A stretch of 64,000 bases of DNA, taken from assembly GCF_035975855.1 (NCBI RefSeq), contig NZ_CP109055.1:8990001-9054000 (forward strand), read 5' to 3'. Positions 14,575 through 52,736 of the stretch are shown here, piece by piece. The DNA comes from Streptomyces sp. NBC_01304 (GTDB lineage Bacteria > Actinomycetota > Actinomycetes > Streptomycetales > Streptomycetaceae). Both the position numbers and the translations under genes were made by a program. The first letter of the stretch is position 1, and the number at the start of each line of letters is the position of its first letter. A model generated the notes under the pieces. It was not told where the DNA came from, did no database searches, and worked only from the letters and a program-made list of their open reading frames with translations.

Positions 14575-15390
14575 TCAGGCCACGCGATAGCGCTCGTCGC
14601 GGGCATCGGTGATCAGCATCTGGCCGGGCGCGTGGGTGAGCGCGAACGGCGGCCCGGACGCCATCACCGCCGCCTGCGGGGTCACGCCGCAGGCCCAGAA
14701 CACCGGGATGTCGCCCGGCTGCGCGTCCACGCGGTCGCCGAAGTCCGGCCGGTCGAGGTCCCGGATGCCGAGCCCGGCCGGGTCGCCGCAGTGCACCGGG
14801 CTGCCGTGCATCGCGGGCAGCAGCGCCGACTCCTCGATCGCGGCCGCGAGCCGGTCAGGCGGCACCGGGCGCATCGACACCACCAACTGCCCTTGCAGCC
14901 GTCCCGCGCTGCGGCAGCGCCGATCGGTGACGTACATGGCGACATTGCGGCCCTGTTCCAGGTGGCGCATCGGCACCCCGGCGTCGAGGAGCGCCGCCTC
15001 GAAGGTGAAGCTGCAGCCGATCAGGAAGGCGACCAGGTCGTCGCGCCAGTACGCGCGCGTGTCGGTGGGTTCGGCGACGAGTTCGCCGTGTTCCCAGACC
15101 CGGTAGCCGGGAATATCGGTGCGCAGATCGGCGCCCGGGGCGAGCGGTGTCGTCCAGGATCCGGCGTCGGTGACGTCAAGTACCGGGCAGGCCTTGGGGT
15201 TGCGCTGGCAGAACAGCAGCATGTCGTACGCCCAGTCCGCGGGTACCGCGATCAGGTTGGCCTGGGTGTGTCCGGGGAGCAGGCCCGCCGTGGTGCCCGT
15301 GGCACCCGCGCGGAAGGCCGCCCGGGCTTCGGCCGGGCTGCGGTACTCGGCGCGGCCCGGGGGAGCGCTCTTGAGGCGCGTACGGCTCAC
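14575..15390 (-). CDS. putative hydro-lyase (DUF1445 family)
   Basis: Protein of 271 residues of the YcsI/DUF1445 'putative hydro-lyase' family. Typical segments are [60 protein letters not shown] and [13 protein letters not shown]. The biochemical reaction is not established. Genes of this family commonly sit beside pxpABC and a transporter, as here, which suggests a step in handling 5-oxoproline or a related compound. The GTG start at 15388-15390 overlaps the MFS stop (GTGA) and has AAGGAG. Confidence 0.88.
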
Positions 15391-16697
15391 AGCAGCTCCT
15401 TTCCACGGGTCTCCGGCAGTCCGAAGAGGGCGATCACGGCGATGCCGTAGGCGAGGGCGCCGAAGATCAGGGCGCCGCCGACACCCCAGCTGTCCGCGAG
15501 GAAGCCGACCAGGGTCGGGAAGACCGCCCCGATGCCACGGCCGGTGTTGTACGTGAAGCCCTGCCCCGTGCCGCGTATCGCCGTCGGATACAGCTCGCTG
15601 AGGAACGAGCCGAAGCCGCTGAAAATCGCCGACATACAGAAGCCGAGCGGGAAACTGACCACGAGGAGAAGGCCGTTGTCGCCCTTCGGTATCTGTGAGA
15701 AGGCAAGGATGCAGAGCGCCGACAGGAAGGCGAACAGGGCGATGTTGTTCTTGCGGCCGAGCCGGTCGGTGAGCACGCCGCCGGTGAGATAGCCGAGGAA
15801 GGCGCCGGATATCAGTACGGACAGATAGCCGCCGGTGCCGACGACGGTGAGGCCGCGCTCGGTCTTGAGGTACGTCGGAACCCAGGTGGCGAGCGTGTAG
15901 TAGCCGCCCTGGACGCCCGTCGAGAGCAGCACCGCGAAGAGCGTGACACGGGCCGTGCCGGGCTTGAAGATCGCCGCCAACGAGCCCATGAGCGGGGCCT
16001 TCTCGGCGCTCTTGCGGCGCACTTCGGCCGCCTCGGGGGCGTCGCTGACATGACGGCGTACGTAGATGACGAGAAGCGCCGGCAGCGCACCGGTCCAGAA
16101 CATCACGCGCCAGGCGGTGTCCGGGTCGACGAACTCGAAGGTCAGCGTGTAGACGATGACCGCGAGACCCCAGCCGACCGCCCACGCGCTCTGGACGCCG
16201 CCGAGGGTGCGGCCGCGGTGCTTGGCCGAGGCGTACTCGGCGACCAGGATCGCGCCGACCGCCCATTCGCCGCCGAAACCGAGGCCCTGCAGGGCGCGGA
16301 AGAGTAGCAGGGTCTCGTAGTTGGGTGCGAAGCCGCACGCGACGGTGAAGACGGCGTAGGTGCTCACCGTGATGATCAGAGCCTTCACCCGGCCGACGCG
16401 GTCGGCGAGGATGCCGGCGAGCGCCCCGCCGACGGCCGAGACCACCAGCGTGACCGTGGTGAGCAGGCCGGTCTGGCCGCTGTCGAGCCCGAAGTAGGCG
16501 GCGATCGCCACCATGGTCAAGGGCAGTGTGAAGTAGTCGTAGGAGTCCAGGCCGTAGCCGCCGAACGCGCCACCGAAGGCGCGCCGCCCCTGCGGGCCCA
16601 GTGCACGGAACCAGGCGAACGGGCCGTCGGGGGAGGCGGGTTCGGGCGGGGCCGGGGCCACCGCCGACTCGGACTCGGGCGGAGGGGTCGTACTCAT
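15387..16697 (-). CDS. MFS transporter of the metabolite:H+ symporter type
   Basis: Twelve-helix transporter of 436 residues. Clear MFS marks: [14 protein letters not shown] between TM2 and TM3, [20 protein letters not shown] in TM4, and [13 protein letters not shown] in the second half. The pattern matches the aromatic acid/sialate-type symporter group. It leads an operon with the hydro-lyase and pxpABC, so it probably imports the compound they degrade, plausibly 5-oxoproline (inference). ATG 16697 has GAGGTG upstream. Confidence 0.88.
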
Positions 16698-16762
16698 CGT
16701 GCACCTCGCAGGAGTGGGAGGAGGGTGCTTGAGAGTTCGTGCGGGTTGCTCGACAAGGTAGA

Positions 16763-16779
16763 GGATTGTTGAACGATCC
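16763..16779. promoter_or_regulatory. candidate GntR/FadR-type operator
   Basis: Near-palindrome GGATTGTTGAACGATCC in the 130-bp divergent region between the MFS operon and the GntR gene. Its core GT-TGA-AC fits the GT-N-AC pattern typical of FadR-subfamily sites. It lies 66 bases before the MFS start and 48 before gntR, well placed to control both. Confidence 0.5.
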
Positions 16780-16827
16780 CTCAATACCCCTGTTGTTTCG
16801 TTCTTGTATCTGCGCTTGAATTCGGGC

Positions 16828-17508
16828 ATGAGCGAACTGGTCGACGACCGTGCACTTCTCGGCCGCACCAGCACGGCGGAACGCGTGGCGGACATCCTGC
16901 GCAATCGGCTCGCCGACGGATATTTCGAACCGGGGGAGCAGCTTTCCGAAGCCGCCATCGGGGGCGCGCTGAAGGTGTCGCGCAACACACTGCGGGAAGC
17001 CTTCCGGCTGCTCACGCACGAGCGACTCCTCGTGCACGAGCTCAACCGCGGCGTCTTCGTGCGCAAGCTGGCCGTGGCGGACGTCGAGGACATCTACCGC
17101 ACCCGACTGCTCGTCGAGTGCGCCGTCGTCCGTGGCCTCGGCAGGCCGCCGTACGACCTCGCCCGGCTCGCGGCGGCCGTCGCCGAGGGCAGGCGGGCGG
17201 CCCGCGCCCACGACTGGAAGGGCGTCGGCACCGCCAACATCCACTTCCACCGGGAGCTGGTGGCCCTCGCGGGCAGCGTGCGCACCGACGAACTCATGCG
17301 CAGCGTCTTCGCCGAGCTGCGCCTCGCCTTCCACCTGGTCGACGACCCGCACACCCTGCACCAGCCCTACCTCGGCCGGAACCAGGAGCTCCTCGAAGCC
17401 CTGCAGGCCGGCGACCGGGCCGGGGCCGGGCGGCTCCTCGCCCAGTACCTGGACGACTCCAGGCAGCGTGTGATCGAGGCGTACGCGCAGCACCTGAGCG
17501 GCGCCTGA
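16828..17508 (+). CDS. GntR-family regulator (FadR/FCD subfamily)
   Basis: Regulator of 226 residues. The N-terminal winged helix (residues 13-80) contains [20 protein letters not shown] and [19 protein letters not shown]. The C-terminal FCD all-helical domain has [16 protein letters not shown] and metal-ligand-like histidines in [11 protein letters not shown]. Start ATG 16828 is preferred over an in-frame TTG at 16804. Divergence from the pxp operon and a FadR-like palindrome in between make it the likely local regulator responding to 5-oxoproline or a related acid (inference). Confidence 0.88.
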
Positions 17509-17579
17509 GCACTGGGCCGAGCCCCGTCTGATCTGCGTCGTTTCGGCCGTTGTCAGTGGGAGCGCCTAATCTTTCCGTC

Positions 17580-19085
17580 GTGACTGCACCTGCCCCGGCC
17601 AAAACCGGCCCCTCTCCGGCCCCGGGCCCGGCCGCCGACGAAGGCCTGGCCCGGCGCCTGCGCGCGCTCGCCTGCACGGCGCCGCTGCACGACCTCGACG
17701 TGCGCAAGGCCAACCTCGCGGGCGAGTACTCGGTGTACGCGATGGCGGAGGTCGCGCTCTCCGCCATCGACCTCGTCACGCTGAACATGGATTTCGACAC
17801 GGGCGCCGACCACGAACAGATAGTGACGAGGCTCATCCCGCGCATCGCGGCCCAGGCGCCGCAGCGGCCCGTCGCCGAGCACGAGCGGGTGGCGCGCTGG
17901 GTCCTGGAGAACCTGATCAACGTCGGCAGCGTGGACCGCGGCTTCCGCGCGGTGTACGGCACGTTCTCGCCGGACGGGGCCTACGTGCGCCGTGACTACG
18001 ACTTCAAGCTGATCGAAGAGGTGCCCGGCTACGGGGGCGGTGTCTATCTGCGTACGACGGATGAGGCCGTCAACGTGCTCGTCGGCGCCCTCGACACCGA
18101 CGTCACCAGCGCGCAGATCGCGGCCGAGGTCAAGCTCGAGGTGCTGATCAGCCGCGGCCGGCTCGCCGACGCCCAGCTCGCCGCCGAGCAGGCCCGGTAC
18201 CGGACCGTGCAGTACTCGGAGACGCTGCGCCGGGCCCTGGACGCCACGCGGCGCAACGTTCGCGCGGTGGACTGGCTGGAAGCCGTGCCGGACATGATCG
18301 CCGAGGCGCTGGACCATGTCGCCGACCGGTACCGGCACGAGAACGCGATCCTGACCAACATTCGCAAGGCGCGGGACGAGGCCGAGGACCCCGAGCACAA
18401 GCGGCGCGCGGCAGAGCTCGTCGACATCGTGAAGGACTGCATCCGACGCCATACGCAGCTGCAGTCCCGACTCCTCGAAGCGGGGCCGCTGTTCCGTGCC
18501 GAGCAGGACCGGCAGGCCTTCGCCGCGCCCTCCGCGCGCGCCGGGCTCGATCTGTACGGGCAGCTCGTCGCGCCCGTGCTTCCGCTGCCCGTGGAGCAGG
18601 GGATCCGGGTCACCGACGCGTTCTTCGCGCGCGGGACGGGGCTTCGGACGCCCGCGTCCGTGCGGGTCGGGGATCTGGTCGACATGCTGCTCACGCCGCC
18701 CATGGAGCGCGAGCACCTGGGGGTGGAGATGCCCGAGCCCGATCTGATCGCCACGCCTGACGACAGTCGGTTCAGTGAGGAGCAGCTTGCCTCCGCGATG
18801 GAGCTGCTCGATCTGGAGCATGACGCTCCGCGGCGGTTGTCGGGGCTGTTGGCCGAGGCTCGGCGCCTCGATCCCGAACTTCCTTATCTGGTGGCGCTGT
18901 TGGCAGTGCATGCGGCCAGTCCGCCCGTTGGCACTGCGTACCGGCAAGGGGAGTCGAAGCTCTTGTTCGCCGTGGATGACGGGGTTGAGCTGGATGATCC
19001 GGAGTTCGGCGGGGCCGACTTGATCGTGGGGACGGCTTTGCTGGATGCCATAGGGATGGCTGCGGATCGGTCGGAGGCGGCGTGA
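17580..19085 (+). CDS. kleisin-like subunit of an SMC complex (MukF/JetA-like)
   Basis: Protein of about 501 residues, first of three genes ending in a giant SMC ATPase. The N-terminal third looks like winged-helix plus helical bundle (YSVYAMAEVALSAIDLVTLN, then VLENLINVGSVDRGFR). A central helical stretch, rich in charged residues, runs through LRRALDATRRNVRAVDW and HENAILTNIRKARDEAEDPE. The C-terminal third returns to compact alpha/beta. This size, order and position match MukF/MksF/JetA kleisins, but the call is by architecture and context, not by a unique motif. I prefer GTG 17580, which has TAATCT eight bases upstream and may be leaderless; a TTG at 17550 is also in frame. Confidence 0.55.
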   Translation: MTAPAPAKTGPSPAPGPAADEGLARRLRALACTAPLHDLDVRKANLAGEYSVYAMAEVALSAIDLVTLNMDFDTGADHEQIVTRLIPRIAAQAPQRPVAEHERVARWVLENLINVGSVDRGFRAVYGTFSPDGAYVRRDYDFKLIEEVPGYGGGVYLRTTDEAVNVLVGALDTDVTSAQIAAEVKLEVLISRGRLADAQLAAEQARYRTVQYSETLRRALDATRRNVRAVDWLEAVPDMIAEALDHVADRYRHENAILTNIRKARDEAEDPEHKRRAAELVDIVKDCIRRHTQLQSRLLEAGPLFRAEQDRQAFAAPSARAGLDLYGQLVAPVLPLPVEQGIRVTDAFFARGTGLRTPASVRVGDLVDMLLTPPMEREHLGVEMPEPDLIATPDDSRFSEEQLASAMELLDLEHDAPRRLSGLLAEARRLDPELPYLVALLAVHAASPPVGTAYRQGESKLLFAVDDGVELDDPEFGGADLIVGTALLDAIGMAADRSEAA

Positions 19086-19094
19086 GAATTCTTC

Positions 19095-19174
19095 TTCCCC
19101 ACCCCGCCCCTTCCCGAAAGTCTGCGACGCCGCCCGCCCTTCGGGCGGGTCCTCAAACGCCGGACGGGCTGGAT
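19095..19174. repeat. streptomycete intergenic palindromic repeat
   Basis: The 133-bp gap between the first two SMC-operon genes holds CCCGCCC-TTC-GGGCGGG (19133-19149) followed by CTCAAACGCCGGACGGGCTG. From memory this is a very common type of Streptomyces intergenic element. The hairpin could attenuate transcription inside the operon. It shows that this gap is a mobile-repeat insertion site rather than a promoter by default. Confidence 0.6.
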
Positions 19175-19218
19175 ATCGGCCCGAACATGAAGATGAACGT
19201 GATCAAGGAGCAGCGCCC

Positions 19219-20121
19219 GTGAGTGACCACCACGCAGACGGCACCGCGTGGAGTGAGCCCGAAGCCCGCTCCGCACCCGCGGCCATCACCCCCGCCGACG
19301 CCGCCGACGCCGCGCGGCTCGTCGCCTTCGGGCTGCAGCCGAAACTGCAGCCCGCGCGGGACGTCGAGTACGCCGATCTGCTCAGGCGGTATCGCGAGGA
19401 TCCGCCGTTCGCGCGGCTCGCGGATGCCGTGGCGACCGGGCTCGGGCTGGTCGTGCTTGAGGTCTCGCCCCGTGCGGGCATGGCGGTGACCGCCGCCGAG
19501 GACTCGGTGTTCGCCGTCCGCATGGGCGACTACGCGCGGCGGGCCGCCTCCGACTCCGCCGACCGGTTTCTGCACGGCCTCGCCCATCTCGCGGTCGCGG
19601 CCATGGCGTTCCCGCGGCCCGAGGACCTCGCCGACGACGGGTACATCGGGCGGGTCACCGTCAACGGCGTCGATGCCTTTGTGCGCCAGGCCTGTCACCG
19701 GCTGGAGGAGCGCGCCGACGAGCAGGGCGAGAACACCGACCCGGCCAGCGATGCCCCCGGCCTCGAAGCGGGCTGGCGGATCTGGGCGCGGCGCAGCTCC
19801 ACCGGCGCCACCAAGGACGCCCGCCGCCTCGCCGGGTCGACCACCGGCATCGTCGCCAAGGCCGTCGCCTTCCTCACCGACTCCGGTTTCCTGCAGCGCA
19901 CGGGGGACGACGCCGGGGGGACGTACCGCACCACCGCGCGCTACCAGCTGCAGGTCCGCGACATGGCGGGCAGCGCCGCCATGGCCGAACTGCTCGAACT
20001 CGGCATCGTGCCGGTGAGCGACGGCAGCGCCAGCCTGGTGCCCGCCACGGACGGGGAGGATCTGGAACTCGTCGCGGGCGCCGGACTTCCCTTCCACGCC
20101 GACGCCGCCGACCGGGCCTGA
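19219..20121 (+). CDS. KITE/winged-helix subunit of an SMC complex (MukE/JetB-like)
   Basis: Protein of 300 residues, second in the SMC operon. Visible: a short helical N-terminus, EYADLLRRYREDPPFARLAD, then a long-helix region DRFLHGLAHLAVAAMAFPRP. A likely winged-helix unit follows, with AVAFLTDSGFLQRTGDD as recognition helix and wing and TYRTTARYQLQVRDMAGSA as the next strand and helix. MukE/MksE/JetB proteins have this size, tandem winged helices and gene position. GTG 19219 follows AAGGAG at eight bases. The assignment rests on architecture and neighbours. No enzymatic motif is present. Confidence 0.55.
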   Translation: MSDHHADGTAWSEPEARSAPAAITPADAADAARLVAFGLQPKLQPARDVEYADLLRRYREDPPFARLADAVATGLGLVVLEVSPRAGMAVTAAEDSVFAVRMGDYARRAASDSADRFLHGLAHLAVAAMAFPRPEDLADDGYIGRVTVNGVDAFVRQACHRLEERADEQGENTDPASDAPGLEAGWRIWARRSSTGATKDARRLAGSTTGIVAKAVAFLTDSGFLQRTGDDAGGTYRTTARYQLQVRDMAGSAAMAELLELGIVPVSDGSASLVPATDGEDLELVAGAGLPFHADAADRA

Positions 20122-20182
20122 ACGCCCGCCGCCCCGCCCAGACTTCCTGCCGACTTCAGACACACGACGAGAGTCCGCCGCC

Positions 20183-23100
20183 ATGTACGAGCTGTCCCGG
20201 ATCCGCCTCTACTCCATCGGCCCCGCCGGTGCGCGCTACGCCGACACCGTGCTCGACCTGCGTGGAGTGGGCAGCGCCGTGCCCGAACCCGCGCCCACCC
20301 AGGCGGAGTTCTTCGCGGACGAGCCGACCGGCCCGCCGCGCCGCCCCGCCCCTGCGGGGGTCCTCTTCCTGGAGAACGGCGGCGGTAAGTCCGTCCTGCT
20401 CAAGCTGATCTTCTCCGTGATGCTGCCGGGCCACCGCAACACCCTCGGTGGCGCCAGCTCCGGTGTGCTGCGCAAGTTCCTGCTCGCGGACGACTGCGGG
20501 CATGTGGCCCTGGAGTGGCAGCACACCCTCACCGGCGAGTGCGTCGTCGTCGGCAAGGTCAGCGAGTGGCGCGGGCGACAGGTCTCCAACGACCCGCGGA
20601 AGTTCGCCGAGGCCTGGTACTCCTTCCAGCCCGGCCCGGGGCTGAGCCTGGACAACCTGCCGGTCGCCGAGTCCACGGCCGTACGTCCCGTCGCCGAGGG
20701 CGCCTCCGGGGCGCAGGGCCGGCGCCGCACCATGAAGGGCTTCCGGGACGCACTGACCGACGCGGTCAAGGCGTACCCGCACCTCGAAGTGCACTGGGAA
20801 GAGATCCACGACCGCTGGAACGAACACCTCGGCGACCTGGGCCTCGACCCCGAACTCTTCCGTTACCAGCGCGAGATGAACGCCGACGAAGGCGAGGCCG
20901 CCGGCCTCTTCGCCGTCAAGAAGGACTCCGACTTCACCGATCTGCTCCTTCGCGCGGTCACCGATACCAGGGACACCGACGGGCTCGCCGACCTGGTGGG
21001 CGGCTTCGGGAACAAGCTGGGCCGACGCGCCGAGCTGATCGCCGAACGCGACTTCACCGCAGGCTCGGTCGACCTGCTCACCCGCATCGTCGAGGGCACC
21101 GAGACCAGGGCACGCGCGCGTGACGTGCACGCGGCCGCCGAGCGGCGCACCCGGGGCCTGGCCCGTCGCCTGTCCGCCCGCGCCGTCCAGGAGCGCGGCC
21201 GCGCCGCCGATCTCGCCCAGCAGGTCACCGCCGCCGCGCACACCGTCACCGAGGCCGAGCAGTCCCGCGGCCGCAGCGCCCTGATCGCCGCCGAACTCGC
21301 CTACCGCAACGCCTCGTTGGCGCTGTCCGCCGCCGAGAAGGCCGCCGCCGCCCAGAAGCGCGAGCTCGCCGACGCCCGCACCCTGCACTCCGCCTGGCAG
21401 GCCGCCGAGGCCGTGCTCAGGCACCGTGCCGCCGCCGACCGCTCCGCGCGCGTGGCCGTCGCCATCCGCGAGGCCGAGCGGGACGCGGCCCCCGCGCTCG
21501 CCGCCCGCGCCGAGGCCGCCGCCGACCTGGTACGCGCCCTGCACACGGCCGCCGAGGACGGCGAGCGGCTCGCCAACGAGGAGGAGGAGCGCTCCGCCGC
21601 CCTCCAGGAGGTCGGCGAGGCCGCGCACCACGACGCCACCATCGCCGCCACCGACGCCCAGCGCGCCCGCAGCGAGGTCGGCCACCTCAAGCAGCGTCTG
21701 GCCGAGGTCGAGCAGGAGACCACCGAGGCCGTCCGCGCGGGCTGGCTCGACGACACCGCACCCGACGCCGACCCGGCCCGCGCCGCCCTTGCCGCCAGCG
21801 ACGCCGAGAAGACCGCGGTCGCCGCCTGGGACACGGCCCGTGACGCCTCGCGCGCGACGGCCGACCGCGCCAGGGAAGCCGCCGCGACCCAGGCCCGCGC
21901 CGAACTCACCGCGGCCCGCGCGGCCGACGCCGCGGATGCCGCGGATGCCGCCTACACGGCGGAGAACCGCACCGCCGAGGCCCTTGCCGCCGAACAGCGT
22001 CTCGCGGATCTGCTCAGCCTGCCGGGCACGGCGGACAGGGCGGGCGACGGGGGAGCCGGGGCCGTGCCCCAGCCGCGTACCGTCCGCACGGAATCCGCCC
22101 GCTCGGAATCCGACGGCCCCGTGACCCCGCCGCTGCGACCCGCCTCCGAAACCCCCCTCACCGGCGAGGAGTTGGACCGCTTCGCGGACGAGCTGCGGGA
22201 GGTTCTGGAGCAGGGCGTCAACACCGCCGAGCGCCAGCTGTTCGACCTGCGCACGGCGGCAGCGGACGACTCCCGCATCCTCGGCGCCCTCGGCGACGGC
22301 GGACTGCTCCCGCCCGGCCCGGACGTCCTGGCCACCGTCGAATACCTCGGCGAGCACGGCATCCCCGCCCTGCCCGGCTGGCGCTACCTCGCCCAGGCCG
22401 TCGACCCCGCCGACCACGCGCGTGTGCTCGCCGCCCGGCCCGAGCTCGTCGACGGCGTCGTCATCACCGACCCCGCCACGCACGCCCGCGCCCGCGAGGT
22501 GCTGACCGGCGCCGCCCTGCTGCCCCGCTCGACCGTGGCCGTCGGCACGGCCGCCGCACTCATCGCCCCGGCCCCGGCCGCCGAAGCGGGCGGCGACACG
22601 GACGTGTTCCTGGTCCCGCCGAACCCGGCCATGCACGACGAGCACGCCGCCGACGAGGAGCGCCAAGCCCTGCGCACCCGCGCCACCCGGCGCGACGAGG
22701 AGATCCGGGCCCTCGCCGCCCGCCTCGCGAAGGACCGCGAGCTCGCCGCCCGCCTCAGCTCCTGGCGCACCGGCTGCCCCGCCGGGCGCCTCGCCGAACT
22801 CGCCCGAGCCGCCGGTGCGGCCCGCGAGTTCGCCGAGGAGGCCGAGGCCGAGCTCACCGAGGCCCGCACCGCCCGCGCGGAGGCCGACGAGGCAGCCGCC
22901 GACGCCGCCCGCGTGCGCGACGAGCGCCAGGACGCCGCCCAGCGCGCCCGCCGCGTCGCCGACGCCCTGGCCGGCCTCGCCTTCCGGCTCAGGGAACGGG
23001 CCGGCTGGCAGGTCAAACTGCGCGAACTCGCCGACGACGCGGTCGAGTCGGAGGCCAGGGCGACCGCCTGCCTGGACCGGGCCCGCGCCGCCGACGAGGA

Positions 23101-24940
23101 CCGCCGCGCCGCCCAGCGTGCCGCGGACGACGCCCGGCGTACGTCGCGCGCCCTGCGCGCCGAACGCGCGGAGGTCGCCGGCGCCCCCGACGACGTACCG
23201 GAAGAGGCCCCGGACTCCCCGGAGGCCGACGCTCCGAAGAAGACCCCGCTGCCCGCCCTGCGCGAGGCCTACCGCGCCGCGTCCCAGCTCTACGAGAAGG
23301 TCGGCGTCGGCGCCGACCTGCGGGCCGAGCAGGCCCGGGCCGAGAGCGACGACAGCGCCGCGCTCACCGAACTGGACCGGCTCAGCAACAAGGTGCGCAC
23401 GCGCGCCGCCCAGCTCCTGGAAGGGCCGGACGGCGCCGACGGCCCGTCCCGGCAGGCCGCCGCGGCCCGCGCCGAGTCCCTGGTGCAGATGCTGGAGACC
23501 CGGGCGTCCACCGCCAGCGAGCAGCTCGGCCGACTGCGTGGCGAGGCCGAGCGGCACGCCCCCGAGGACGGCGAGGCGCACACCGAGCTCCCCGAGGAGC
23601 TCGTGCCCACGGACGCCGAGCACGCCCAGACGCTCCTGCGCACCGCCACCACCGAGCTCAACTCCCGTACGGAGGCGCTCGGTGTGGCCCGCGAGGCGCA
23701 CGCCGAACTCCTGCACGCCCACCGCACCGCAGACGACGGCGCGGGCGGCTTCGACGAGACCGCGGCCCTCCTGCGCGACCTGCTCAGGGACCACCACTCC
23801 GGCGACGAGGCAGCGGCGACCGAGGAGCCCGAGCCCTACCCCGGCTCCCTGGAGGAGGCCCGGCAGTCCGCCGCCGAGACCCGCCGCTCCCTGCGGGGCT
23901 GCGCCGCCGAGCTCAGCACGGCCGAGGCGGCGGTGCGCGAGGCCAGTGACGTCCTCGTACGGCATGCCAACTCCACGCGCTACGAGCAGGTGCGCACCCC
24001 GGCCCGCCAGCAGATCCGCGAACTGCCCGCGTCCGCGCTGCCCGAGCACGCCAAGAAGTGGGCGGAGGCCTTCGCGCCCCGACTGCGCGTGCTCACCGAC
24101 GAGTTGGAGCAGCTGGAGCGCAACCGGGACAGCATCGTCGACCGGCTGCGCGGCCTGGTCGAATCGGCGCTCGCCACGCTCAGGTCGGCGCAGCGGCTCT
24201 CCCGTCTTCCGGAGGGGCTCGGCGAGTGGTCGGGCCAGGAGTTCCTGCGGATCCGCTTCGAGGAGCCCGACCAGGCGACGCTCGCCGAGCGGCTCGGCGT
24301 GGTCGTGGACGAGGCCACCAAGGCGGCCCTGAAGAAGAATTCCGACATGAAGCGGGACGGAATGTCCTTGCTGTTGCGGGGAGTCCAGGCCGCCCTCGAA
24401 CCCAAGGGCATCGCCGTCGAGATCCTGAAGCCGGACGCCGTGCTGCGCGCCGAGCGGGTCCCGGTCGGGCAGATGGGCGACGTCTTCTCCGGCGGCCAGC
24501 TGCTCACCGCTGCCATCGCCCTGTACTGCACGATGGCGGCGCTGCGGTCCAACGACCGGGGCCGCGACAAGCACCGGCACGCGGGCACGCTGTTCCTCGA
24601 CAACCCGATCGGGCGCGCCAACGCCACGTATCTGCTGGAACTCCAGCGGGCCGTCGCCGACGCCCTCGGCGTCCAACTCCTCTACACGACGGGGCTGTTC
24701 GACACCACGGCGCTCGCCGAGTTCCCGCTGGTCATCCGGCTCAGGAACGACGCGGACCTCAGGGCGGGCCTGAAGTACATCAGCGTCGAGGAGCACCTGC
24801 GCCCCGGACTGCCGCAGGAGCACCCGGACGGCGAGACGGTGCACGGCGAGATCACGGCGACCCGCATGTTCAAGCGGCCCGCCGCGACCTCCGTCCCCGG
24901 ACCCGCCTCCGACCCCGCCCCCTCGCCGGCTACGACGTGA
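20183..24940 (+). CDS. giant SMC-like coiled-coil ATPase (MukB/MksB/JetC-like)
   Basis: Protein of 1585 residues with split ABC-type ATPase heads. Walker A, LENGGGKSVLLK, lies near residue 63-75 (Lys about 69). Two long Ala/Glu/Arg-rich coiled coils (roughly 250-690 and 800-1330) flank a compact hinge-like domain (about 690-795) containing ILGALGDGGLLPPGPDVLA and VDGVVITDP. The C-terminal head has the signature VFSGGQLLTAAIALYCTMAA (about 1433-1452) and Walker B, TLFLDNPIGRANATY (about 1470). The Walker B Asp is followed by Asn, not the usual catalytic Glu. It is the third gene after kleisin- and KITE-like proteins. No JetD-type nuclease follows. Its stop overlaps the convergent Rieske gene by 11 bp. 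Likely a DNA-loop-extruding condensin relative acting in chromosome organisation or plasmid defence (inference). Confidence 0.75.
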   Translation: MYELSRIRLYSIGPAGARYADTVLDLRGVGSAVPEPAPTQAEFFADEPTGPPRRPAPAGVLFLENGGGKSVLLKLIFSVMLPGHRNTLGGASSGVLRKFLLADDCGHVALEWQHTLTGECVVVGKVSEWRGRQVSNDPRKFAEAWYSFQPGPGLSLDNLPVAESTAVRPVAEGASGAQGRRRTMKGFRDALTDAVKAYPHLEVHWEEIHDRWNEHLGDLGLDPELFRYQREMNADEGEAAGLFAVKKDSDFTDLLLRAVTDTRDTDGLADLVGGFGNKLGRRAELIAERDFTAGSVDLLTRIVEGTETRARARDVHAAAERRTRGLARRLSARAVQERGRAADLAQQVTAAAHTVTEAEQSRGRSALIAAELAYRNASLALSAAEKAAAAQKRELADARTLHSAWQAAEAVLRHRAAADRSARVAVAIREAERDAAPALAARAEAAADLVRALHTAAEDGERLANEEEERSAALQEVGEAAHHDATIAATDAQRARSEVGHLKQRLAEVEQETTEAVRAGWLDDTAPDADPARAALAASDAEKTAVAAWDTARDASRATADRAREAAATQARAELTAARAADAADAADAAYTAENRTAEALAAEQRLADLLSLPGTADRAGDGGAGAVPQPRTVRTESARSESDGPVTPPLRPASETPLTGEELDRFADELREVLEQGVNTAERQLFDLRTAAADDSRILGALGDGGLLPPGPDVLATVEYLGEHGIPALPGWRYLAQAVDPADHARVLAARPELVDGVVITDPATHARAREVLTGAALLPRSTVAVGTAAALIAPAPAAEAGGDTDVFLVPPNPAMHDEHAADEERQALRTRATRRDEEIRALAARLAKDRELAARLSSWRTGCPAGRLAELARAAGAAREFAEEAEAELTEARTARAEADEAAADAARVRDERQDAAQRARRVADALAGLAFRLRERAGWQVKLRELADDAVESEARATACLDRARAADEDRRAAQRAADDARRTSRALRAERAEVAGAPDDVPEEAPDSPEADAPKKTPLPALREAYRAASQLYEKVGVGADLRAEQARAESDDSAALTELDRLSNKVRTRAAQLLEGPDGADGPSRQAAAARAESLVQMLETRASTASEQLGRLRGEAERHAPEDGEAHTELPEELVPTDAEHAQTLLRTATTELNSRTEALGVAREAHAELLHAHRTADDGAGGFDETAALLRDLLRDHHSGDEAAATEEPEPYPGSLEEARQSAAETRRSLRGCAAELSTAEAAVREASDVLVRHANSTRYEQVRTPARQQIRELPASALPEHAKKWAEAFAPRLRVLTDELEQLERNRDSIVDRLRGLVESALATLRSAQRLSRLPEGLGEWSGQEFLRIRFEEPDQATLAERLGVVVDEATKAALKKNSDMKRDGMSLLLRGVQAALEPKGIAVEILKPDAVLRAERVPVGQMGDVFSGGQLLTAAIALYCTMAALRSNDRGRDKHRHAGTLFLDNPIGRANATYLLELQRAVADALGVQLLYTTGLFDTTALAEFPLVIRLRNDADLRAGLKYISVEEHLRPGLPQEHPDGETVHGEITATRMFKRPAATSVPGPASDPAPSPATT

Positions 24941-26141
24941 GCGAGAGCCGTTCGGTCACCCATCGGTGGAATCCGCCGATGTGGTGCTCGGACGGCACGA
25001 GCACCCCGCCCTGCCGGTAGGCCCTGGAGCTCATCGCGGGCTGGGTGCGCTCGCAGGCCTCGAAGTCCTGCACGTTCACCCGGTGGAAGAGCTCTACGGA
25101 CCGCGACAGGTCGACCCCGGAGGCCAGAACTTCGGGGGCGTACAGCCAGTCGCACTCGACGACCGTGCGGTCCTCGGACAGCGGGAACATCCGGTGCAGG
25201 ATCACATGGTCCGGCACCAGGTTCACGAACACCGTCGGCTTCACGGTGATCGCGTAGTAGCGGCGGTCCTGCTCGTCGAGGAGGCCGTCGAGGCGCCCGA
25301 ACCCGGCACTGCCGTCGACGGTGAAGCCCTTGACCCCCTCGCCGAACGCCGCGCCGTGGCCCACGAAGTACTGCGCGGCAAAGCCGTCCGCGAACTCCGG
25401 GAGCACATCGGTGAGTTCGGGATGGATGGTCGCGCAGTGATAGCACTCCATGAAGTTCTCGACGATCAGCTTCCAGTTGGCCTTCACGTCGTACGTGATG
25501 CGCTTGCCGAGCGCCAGATCCGTCGTGCGATAGCGGTCGAGGGACGCGACATCGCCCAGCCGCTCCACGGCCGCGCCGATCACCGTGTCCTCGAACGACG
25601 GCGGTTCGTCGGCCAGACAGAGCCAGGCATAGCCCAGCCATTCGCGCAGCTGGACCGGGCGCAGCCCGTACGCGCGGCGGTCCACGTCCGCCATGCTCGT
25701 CAGGTTGGGCGCGGCGATCAGCTTGCCGTCCAGGTCGTACGTCCACGCGTGGTACGGGCACTGCAGACTGCGCCGCACCTCGCCCGCCGCCTCGACGCAC
25801 AGCCGGGCGCCGCGGTGCCGGCAGATGTTGAGGAAGGCCCGCAGTTCGCCGTGCCGGTTGCGGGTGACGACCACCGACTCACGGCCGATCTGCACGGTCC
25901 GGAACGCGCCCGGCTTGGCGAGGTCGTCGCAGCGTACGGCGCAGAACCAGAGCGATTCGAAGATCCGGTCCTGCTCCTGCCGGAAGATCCCCGGATCGGT
26001 GTAGAAGTGCCCCGGCAGTGTGGCGATCAGGCTCGGGTCGGGCGCCTGGGCGGGAGCCCCGGTGTGTCCGGCGGTCCCCGGAAGAGGGTCAGCCGTACCC
26101 GGAAGGGGTGCGGCCGTCCCCGGTATGTGCTGGGTCGTCAT
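24930..26141 (-). CDS. Rieske oxygenase alpha subunit, probable glycine betaine monooxygenase
   Basis: Ring-hydroxylating-type oxygenase of 403 residues. The Rieske 2Fe-2S site is CRHRGARLC...CPYHAW (C-x-H ... C-x2-H) around residues 110-135. The mononuclear iron site is NFMECYHCATIHPEL. Enzymes of this type remove N-methyl groups from quaternary amines (GbcA, stachydrine demethylase). The neighbouring dimethylglycine- and sarcosine-oxidase genes point to glycine betaine as substrate; carnitine or stachydrine remain possible. Electrons would come from the divergent ferredoxin and reductase. The first 35 residues contain three PGTA repeats, probably disordered. It is the last gene of the operon, 13 bp after the sarcosine oxidase-type gene. 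Confidence 0.87.
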   Translation of the reverse strand: MTTQHIPGTAAPLPGTADPLPGTAGHTGAPAQAPDPSLIATLPGHFYTDPGIFRQEQDRIFESLWFCAVRCDDLAKPGAFRTVQIGRESVVVTRNRHGELRAFLNICRHRGARLCVEAAGEVRRSLQCPYHAWTYDLDGKLIAAPNLTSMADVDRRAYGLRPVQLREWLGYAWLCLADEPPSFEDTVIGAAVERLGDVASLDRYRTTDLALGKRITYDVKANWKLIVENFMECYHCATIHPELTDVLPEFADGFAAQYFVGHGAAFGEGVKGFTVDGSAGFGRLDGLLDEQDRRYYAITVKPTVFVNLVPDHVILHRMFPLSEDRTVVECDWLYAPEVLASGVDLSRSVELFHRVNVQDFEACERTQPAMSSRAYRQGGVLVPSEHHIGGFHRWVTERLSLTS

Positions 26142-52161: not shown

Positions 52162-52632
52162 TCAGACGCTGAACCACAACTCGGGCCGCACCCAGTCGAC
52201 CTTCGGCGGAGCAGGCGGCACCGTGCCGGTCCGCCGCGCGCCGAGCCGCCGGTAGAACTCCTCCGACGGGGGATGCGACACCACGCGCACCCCGTCGAGG
52301 CCGGCGGCCCGCGCCTCGCCGAGCATGTGCTCCACCAACTGCCGCCCGACTCCCAGCCCTTGCGCGTCGTCGGCCACGAACGCCAGGTCCAGCTCCGCCG
52401 GCTCGCACACCAGCGAGTAGAAGCCGAGCACCCGCCCGGCACCGTCCGCCGCGACGAAGACCAGATGCCGGGCCATGTACTCGGCCGTGACCGCGTAGCC
52501 CTCCAGGATCGAGGCGTACTGCCCCTGATATGCGCTCGACTTGAGCATGAGGGAGGTCAGGGTCTCGGCGTCGGCGGCCGTGGCACGCCGGATGACCGTG
52601 CCGATCAGTGCGCTGGGCGTGGTGCTGTTCAT
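52162..52632 (-). CDS. GNAT-family N-acetyltransferase
   Basis: Acetyltransferase of 156 residues. IRRATAADAETLTSLMLKSS is the N-terminal strand and helix. LDLAFVADDAQGLGVGRQLV holds the acetyl-CoA loop, with Q-G-L-G-V-G for Q/R-x-x-G-x-G/A. EEFYRRLGARRTGTVPP is the usual C-terminal motif. Substrate unknown. ATG 52632. It is 81 bp downstream of the GH31 gene on the same strand, the gap being filled with repeats of the GH31 3' end, so co-transcription is possible. Confidence 0.87.
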   Translation of the reverse strand: MNSTTPSALIGTVIRRATAADAETLTSLMLKSSAYQGQYASILEGYAVTAEYMARHLVFVAADGAGRVLGFYSLVCEPAELDLAFVADDAQGLGVGRQLVEHMLGEARAAGLDGVRVVSHPPSEEFYRRLGARRTGTVPPAPPKVDWVRPELWFSV

Positions 52633-52660
52633 GCGGCCGAGCCTAGGCGGACCCACTGAC

Positions 52661-52736
52661 AACGCCCCTCACGCACCGAGCCCGCGGTAACGCCCCTCAC
52701 GCACCGCTGCCCTTCACGCACCGAGCCCGCGCACGG
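52661..52736. repeat. three tandem copies of the GH31 gene 3' end
   Basis: On the plus strand CCCCTCACGCACCGAGCCCG (from 52665), CCCCTCACGCACCG (from 52693) and CCCTTCACGCACCGAGCCCG (from 52710). The last copy holds the true TGA stop (52714-52716, minus strand). The others repeat the same GCGTGA beyond the gene end. Confidence 0.75.

Follow-up and report, generated by a model that had tools for sequence, protein, structure and literature searches.

A JetD-less relative of Wadjet type III is a core operon of Streptomyces with a candidate role in genome maintenance

We analyzed a three-gene operon, jetA-jetB-jetC, in 64,000 nt of the chromosome of Streptomyces sp. NBC_01304 (contig NZ_CP109055.1). 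This whole stretch is the window, and all positions are coordinates within it. An earlier note on the same DNA had described a three-gene operon of a structural maintenance of chromosomes (SMC) ATPase, a kleisin-like and a KITE-like protein, similar to JetABC and encoding 501, 300 and 1585 residues. The open reading frames and matches to the JetA3 and JetC3 families bear this out, and the 11-bp overlap that the note reported between jetC and a convergent Rieske gene is also present. The locus reads as follows:

17550-17572, + strand: RecA-NDp/PafBC-like promoter, TTGTCAGTG-N8-TAATCT, an exact match to the consensus
17580-19085, + strand: jetA (kleisin-like), 501 residues, GTG start; PADLOC JetA3, PDLC00567, E = 9.9e-187
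19219-20121, + strand: jetB (KITE-like), 300 residues; identified by position and by similarity to JetB of JetABCD operons
20183-24940, + strand: jetC (SMC-like ATPase), 1585 residues; PADLOC JetC3, PDLC00588, E = 0
24930-26141, - strand: convergent open reading frame for a Rieske oxygenase (PF00848 and PF00355), overlapping jetC by 11 bp

The first and third genes belong to the Wadjet type III family by their matches to the PADLOC models JetA3 and JetC3, and neither product matches anything in Pfam or NCBIfam. The jetB product has nothing significant in Pfam or NCBIfam and no PADLOC match at E ≤ 1. It is 33-50% identical to the product of the second gene in eight JetABCD operons of the genus, and the JetB3 model, set against four of those JetB proteins, matches three weakly (E = 6e-4 to 0.03). 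A gap of 133 bp separates jetA from jetB. The jetA reading frame is open already from a TTG at 17550, but because that codon falls within the promoter motif we take the GTG at 17580 as the start. The sequence context of this GTG is conserved in Streptomyces.

A sequence search of the PDB with the operon proteins returned no relatives. The structure model of JetA is of low confidence (predicted local distance difference test score, pLDDT, of 62). In a Foldseek search of the PDB its first two matches are 3euh_A (E = 0.038) and 9gm7_D (E = 0.13), from MukE-MukF and MukBEF entries, which we read as MukF because of their chain lengths. A chain of a JetABCD entry, 8q72_E, appears at rank 9 (E = 0.96). 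The JetB model (pLDDT 57) has a visible C-terminal winged helix, and chains of MukE-MukF entries stand at ranks 5, 8 and 29 with E values of about 1-2, which is no more than suggestive.

No JetD gene lies downstream of jetC, just as the earlier note had said, and searching the whole genome gave the same answer: there is no match to PF09983 (JetD_C), and a Wadjet III JetD profile finds none at E ≤ 10 with all 123 candidates scored. Among 199 genomes of the genus, PF09983 is present in 24. A JetD3 profile made from seven sequences, with ten candidates scored per genome, matches 23 of the 199, 14 of them strongly (E = 4e-52 or better); ten of these 14 fall outside the profile's own seven sequences. 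Because PF09983 missed five of the 14 (G007, G022, G090, G094 and G151), we regard the JetD3 profile as the better test. Strong JetD3 matches occur in 13 of the 15 genomes with at least two JetA matches, compared with one of the remaining 184. In the other two of the 15, G119 and G171, no JetD3 was seen, and the second JetA match may be a fragment. This confinement, for the most part, to genomes with several JetA matches argues that JetD accompanies additional, divergent JetABC copies and not the operon described here. The earlier proposal of a nuclease encoded elsewhere in the genome is therefore disfavored.

The loci themselves were scanned with a trimmed JetD profile, which was positive in 15 of 59, all 15 being the JetD-bearing loci used to build it. 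It found nothing in 25 Streptomyces loci, 24 of them with sequence beyond JetC, nor in 15 Frankiaceae loci, ten of which hold at least 1235 nt beyond JetC and five 91 nt or none. Of 80 named loci, which in 61 cases extend at least 1500 nt past JetC, none matched the JetD profile at E ≤ 1. We also observed JetD-family genes at mirrored spots near both chromosome ends (L009 and L025 in G129, L010 and L026 in G049, and in G151), the pattern expected for copies within terminal inverted repeats.

The operon is a near-universal, core chromosomal gene set throughout Streptomyces. The earlier note had proposed checking its conservation across the genus, and JetA proves to have a match in 193 of the 199 genomes (192 of the 194 of good quality). 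Identity is 86-92% among the matches listed for that search, and the best JetA match is 82-92% identical in all 104 genomes of the genus in an order-wide sample that overlaps the 199. A few best matches are weaker (G121, E = 6e-69; G081, E = 3e-179; G171, E = 5e-223), and the core copy may thus be lacking from one or more of the 193. The NBC_01304 genome also encodes Smc. Over the same 24 genomes the mean identity is 89% for JetA and 88% for the C-terminal 501 residues of Smc (Spearman 0.55). Conservation of JetC is lower, at 73-85% identity for the most part. All three genes are co-located in 25 of 25 fetched Streptomyces loci (L089 is cut by a contig end). JetABC is under purifying selection: the median ratios of nonsynonymous to synonymous substitution rates (dN/dS) in Streptomyces are 0.13 for JetA, 0.20 for JetB and 0.23 for JetC (276 pairs each). 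The values are 0.10-0.32 for four JetD-bearing pairs and 0.29, 0.28 and 0.48 for JetA, JetB and JetC of Frankiaceae; the sets omit 2 of the 26 Streptomyces rows and 6 of the 15 Frankiaceae rows.

Two features were absent from the earlier note: this core distribution and a recA-like promoter. The sequence before jetA matches exactly what we take, after calibration on recA in this genome, to be the RecA-NDp (PafBC) consensus, TTGTCRGTG-N8-TANNNT, an actinobacterial DNA-damage promoter. The motif ends 7 nt before the jetA GTG, and with the start codon that close to the -10 element the jetA mRNA is probably leaderless. In the window the strict motif occurs twice, against 0.00 in 100 shuffles. The second exact copy, at 52640-52662 on the - strand, stands 7 nt upstream of the start codon, ATG, of a gene for a GNAT acetyltransferase (region 52162-52662, - strand), making a link of that gene to DNA damage possible. 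Neither sigma-70-type promoters nor intrinsic terminators were found when scanned for.

Over 1.2 Mb of this chromosome we counted eight strict sites, seven with a gene behind them; five Markov-1 simulations of 400 kb contained zero. Three of the seven encode RecA, an AlkZ-like glycosylase and a DinG/YoaA-like helicase (the last assignment falls short of the NCBIfam cut-offs); the products of the other four are an alpha/beta hydrolase, a HAD hydrolase, a histidine phosphatase and a SUKH-4 protein. The site at recA identifies the motif as the recA promoter. It is not an unbiased hit, since the first 400 kb of the 1.2 Mb were picked because recA was expected there. Leaving recA aside, repair genes make up two of the six motif genes, which at an assumed background of 2-5% would happen by chance with a probability of about 0.006-0.03.

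The motif is kept, with variation, across the genus. We compared 150 unique sequences out of 166 Streptomyces upstream regions: TGTC-N13-TANNNT is present in every one; 102 have TTGTCRG and 57 have the strict motif. The regions were lined up on an anchor of TANNNT with GTGA after it, and the invariance of these letters is a product of that choice. The presence of TGTC was not a condition; where several anchors were possible the one most similar to TTGTCAGT was chosen. In pairwise comparison the regions are on average 0.77 identical within the motif; the value falls to 0.64 for the 23 nt preceding it and to 0.32-0.35, close to random sequence, at 24-69 nt upstream. A further block stands just before the motif:

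17539-17545, + strand: CGTTTCG block, at about -41 to -35 relative to the inferred start of transcription

In CGTTT(C/G)G, all seven positions but the sixth are identical in 143-147 of the 150 regions; the sixth is C in 95 and G in 54. The block was not seen directly upstream of the recA motif; it may be a second binding site. According to the available text of the respective papers, PafBC acts via RecA-NDp (PMC6789036, PMC8223512), RecA-NDp lies upstream of many Actinomycetales damage genes, with an alignment legend that covers S. coelicolor recA (PMC5087735), and mycobacterial PafBC is activated by single-stranded DNA (PMC11804915).

Relatives of the operon extend to a second family. In a class-wide sample of 296 genomes, with five candidates scored per genome, 43 had matches, 28 of the same genus and 15 of Frankiaceae. 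The distribution in Frankiaceae is patchier (19 of 35 genomes, at about 62% identity). Two genomes of a third family in the order-wide sample match at 32-45%, on contigs too short to look for JetD. In a JetA tree the Streptomyces and Frankiaceae rows (41 of 60) form one JetD-less group with a Shimodaira-Hasegawa-like approximate likelihood ratio (SH-aLRT) support of 96. A concatenated tree, in which 48 rows were kept after 12 named loci were dropped as long-branched, truncated or unclassified, places 36 of the 48 in the JetD-less group (SH-aLRT 94). Both were quick trees with SH-aLRT support and long-branch warnings, from which neither root nor direction was inferred. The JetD-less clade adjoins JetD-bearing Wadjet III, and the simplest reading is probably a single loss of JetD.

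Gene spacing also differs between the groups, with start codons chosen by script: in 24 of 26 Streptomyces rows a gap of 31-742 bp separates JetA from JetB, compared with a 4-bp overlap in 14 of 15 JetD-bearing rows, and Frankiaceae is mixed, with 8 of 14 overlapping. One locus, L152 (in G224), holds a second JetA copy that is 58% identical, lies near the core clade and has the strict promoter motif, on a contig that ends inside JetC. It may represent a stage preceding the loss of JetD. In several Frankiaceae loci, among such examples as L139, L140 and L172, TAGGGT or TAGGCT stands shortly before the JetA start with no TGTC upstream. JetA may be leaderless there too, and a different regulator seems likely.

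The heads of JetC retain the motifs of an ABC ATPase. The earlier note had seen P-loop and signature-bearing heads in the third protein, and we could place both, together with a Walker B:

20378-20392, + strand: Walker A, GGGKS, JetC residues 66-70
24485-24499, + strand: ABC signature, FSGGQ, JetC residues 1435-1439
24593-24613, + strand: Walker B, FLDNPIG, JetC residues 1471-1477, with Asn at the usual position of the catalytic Glu

GGGKS is the Walker A in every JetC row where a Walker A could be read. Of 26 Streptomyces JetC rows, 22 have all three motifs readable; the remaining four lack one end in the frame read. ABC ATPases usually have a catalytic Glu at the Walker B position that is Asn here. 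In type III JetC the D-N of L-D-N-P is invariant in 15 of 15 aligned heads, JetD-bearing and JetD-less alike. We therefore rejected loss of the Walker B Glu as a hallmark of JetD-less copies; in type III JetC as a whole, the Asn implies that ATP hydrolysis may be slow or use another residue. We rejected a relationship of JetC to Rad50/SbcC because of the JetC3 match and the absence of a CxxC zinc hook in its 1585 residues.

The fetched neighborhoods show no sign of a new effector. Of their 18 commonest gene clusters, only JetA, JetB and JetC are found at two or more loci in Streptomyces as well as in Frankiaceae; on this ground we rejected an effector next door, the other alternative raised in the earlier note. 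The gene divergent from the operon (14575-17493, - strand) encodes 972 residues, in which Pfam matches nothing apart from a D-glutamate cyclase domain at the C-terminus. In some, not all, Streptomyces loci a relative adjoins the operon.

Taken together, these observations lead us to propose that the operon encodes a nuclease-free SMC complex derived from Wadjet III, kept for genome maintenance and probably induced by DNA damage. We put the probability of this reading at roughly 0.57, and we infer both the induction and the function from sequence. The earlier note had left three readings side by side. The chromosomal SMC complex is favored by the near-universal distribution, the same gene set in 25 of 25 loci, purifying selection and the JetD-less clade, and the other two, a distant nuclease and a new effector, have lost ground as described above.

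As we picture it, a JetC dimer, the JetA kleisin and the JetB KITE protein would form a three-subunit complex that descended from Wadjet type III through loss of JetD and was then retained as a core set. Upon DNA damage, PafBC would sense single-stranded DNA and JetABC would be made in quantity and load onto chromosomal DNA. There, ATP-driven loop extrusion would compact or tether the damaged DNA for repair and segregation without cutting it. Unable to cut, JetABC would be closer in its action to Smc5/6, RecN or MksBEF than to Wadjet. A bolder form of the proposal, to which we would give somewhat less than even odds, is that Streptomyces turned an anti-plasmid machine into a damage-inducible, loop-extruding repair SMC, a bacterial counterpart of eukaryotic Smc5/6, when it lost the nuclease and either retained or acquired a promoter of the recA type. 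If that were true, the Walker B Asn shared by the type III JetC proteins examined would mean an unusual ATPase cycle as well.

Several observations weigh against a damage-induced maintenance complex. The constraint measured by dN/dS does not distinguish the core copy from JetD-bearing copies, and Frankiaceae JetC is looser (0.48). The Walker B of JetC lacks the usual catalytic Glu. No known repair function attaches to four of the seven sampled motif genes or to the window's GNAT gene. The strict motif is found in only 57 of 150 Streptomyces upstream regions, many orthologues having diverged versions, and in none of 31 Frankiaceae upstream rows (which include genomes fetched twice); damage control thus does not extend to the whole JetD-less clade. 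Three of 15 JetD-bearing operons carry it as well (L059, L060 and L158). The motif thus does not separate repair from defense, and damage control could be an ancestral feature of a defense system. From the literature, the available text of PMC7022226 reports that the nuclease-bearing MksBEFG of C. glutamicum does not contribute to chromosome folding. According to that of PMC9380542, a first search pointed to a lack of conservation, in S. venezuelae, of the PafBC motif of M. smegmatis.

The strongest competing explanation, unlikely in our view yet a serious contender, is that JetABC is a second condensin, organizing the chromosome in general, that works in growth or sporulation alongside Smc-ScpAB, the recA-type promoter being incidental or constitutive. 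Near-universality and a JetA as conserved as part of Smc would fit such a role, and Frankiaceae retain the complex without the damage motif. Streptomyces and Frankiaceae are both mycelial and sporulating. MksBEF of P. aeruginosa would serve as precedent, going by the available part of a review (PMC10586767). What speaks for damage-linked maintenance instead is the promoter: its motif is common to recA, the DinG/YoaA-like helicase and the AlkZ-like gene of the same genome, and it is the best-conserved part of the upstream region.

A continued role in defense is less probable still. JetABC would then load on incoming circular or phage DNA and silence or compact it without cutting, or recruit an unrelated nuclease. 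Homology to Wadjet III, the damage-type promoter of those 3 of 15 JetD-bearing operons, by which control by damage or single-stranded DNA may be ancestral to defense, and the similar strength of selection on JetD-bearing copies all agree with this idea. It sits poorly, however, with a near-universal operon that is part of a conserved set, compared with strong JetD3 in 14 of 199 genomes, with a genome that lacks JetD, and with the absence of a conserved neighbor common to both families. That the operon is a decaying Wadjet relic left by chance loss of the nuclease is scarcely credible: the missing JetD would suit it, but the three motifs read in 22 of 26 Streptomyces JetC rows, the presence in 193 of 199 genomes with a conserved promoter, and dN/dS of 0.13-0.23, which already contradicts decay, do not.

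The operon points to a second, nearly universal SMC complex in Streptomyces. Papers on Streptomyces chromosome organization speak, in the text available, of a single condensin, Smc-ScpAB. Searches of the open-access literature, bioRxiv not included, brought up no title or abstract that describes this operon, which is a weak absence; the available portions of PMC10586767, PMC10123090, PMC13121528, PMC4255298, PMC4255302, PMC11898615 and PMC7022226 do not mention it. Wadjet is described as enriched in Actinobacteria and at Streptomyces chromosome ends in PMC10482375, where the word JetD is absent from the main text. Streptomyces matches to JetA3 and JetC3 without JetD should not be counted as Wadjet defense. 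Some genomes carry both the core copy, which lacks the nuclease, and copies that have it, and the operon opens to testing the passage of SMC complexes between DNA immunity and the maintenance of chromosomes.

Set against known systems, the operon resembles Wadjet type III in its JetA3 and JetC3 family matches, its A-B-C gene order and its JetC motifs, including the D-N of Walker B. It departs from Wadjet type III in lacking JetD both next to the operon and genome-wide, in being near-universal in the genus where Wadjet is sporadic, and in the separation of JetA from JetB in Streptomyces, which overlap by 4 bp in most JetD-bearing rows. In motif and spacing its promoter resembles those of the RecA-NDp/PafBC regulon, with the motif common to recA in this genome, although many jetA orthologues carry diverged versions. 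RecN and Smc5/6 belong to different families from JetC. JetABC would share with them the proposed damage-linked tethering of DNA by an SMC ATPase, but unlike them it has Jet-type kleisin and KITE partners. With MksBEF and MukBEF it has in common a nuclease-free three-gene set of SMC, kleisin and KITE, and the top two structural matches of the JetA model are MukE-MukF and MukBEF chains; at the sequence level no relation to them was found, and the family origin of the operon is type III Wadjet. By analogy, the nearest precedent would be MksBEF of P. aeruginosa, as presented in the available part of the review PMC10586767.

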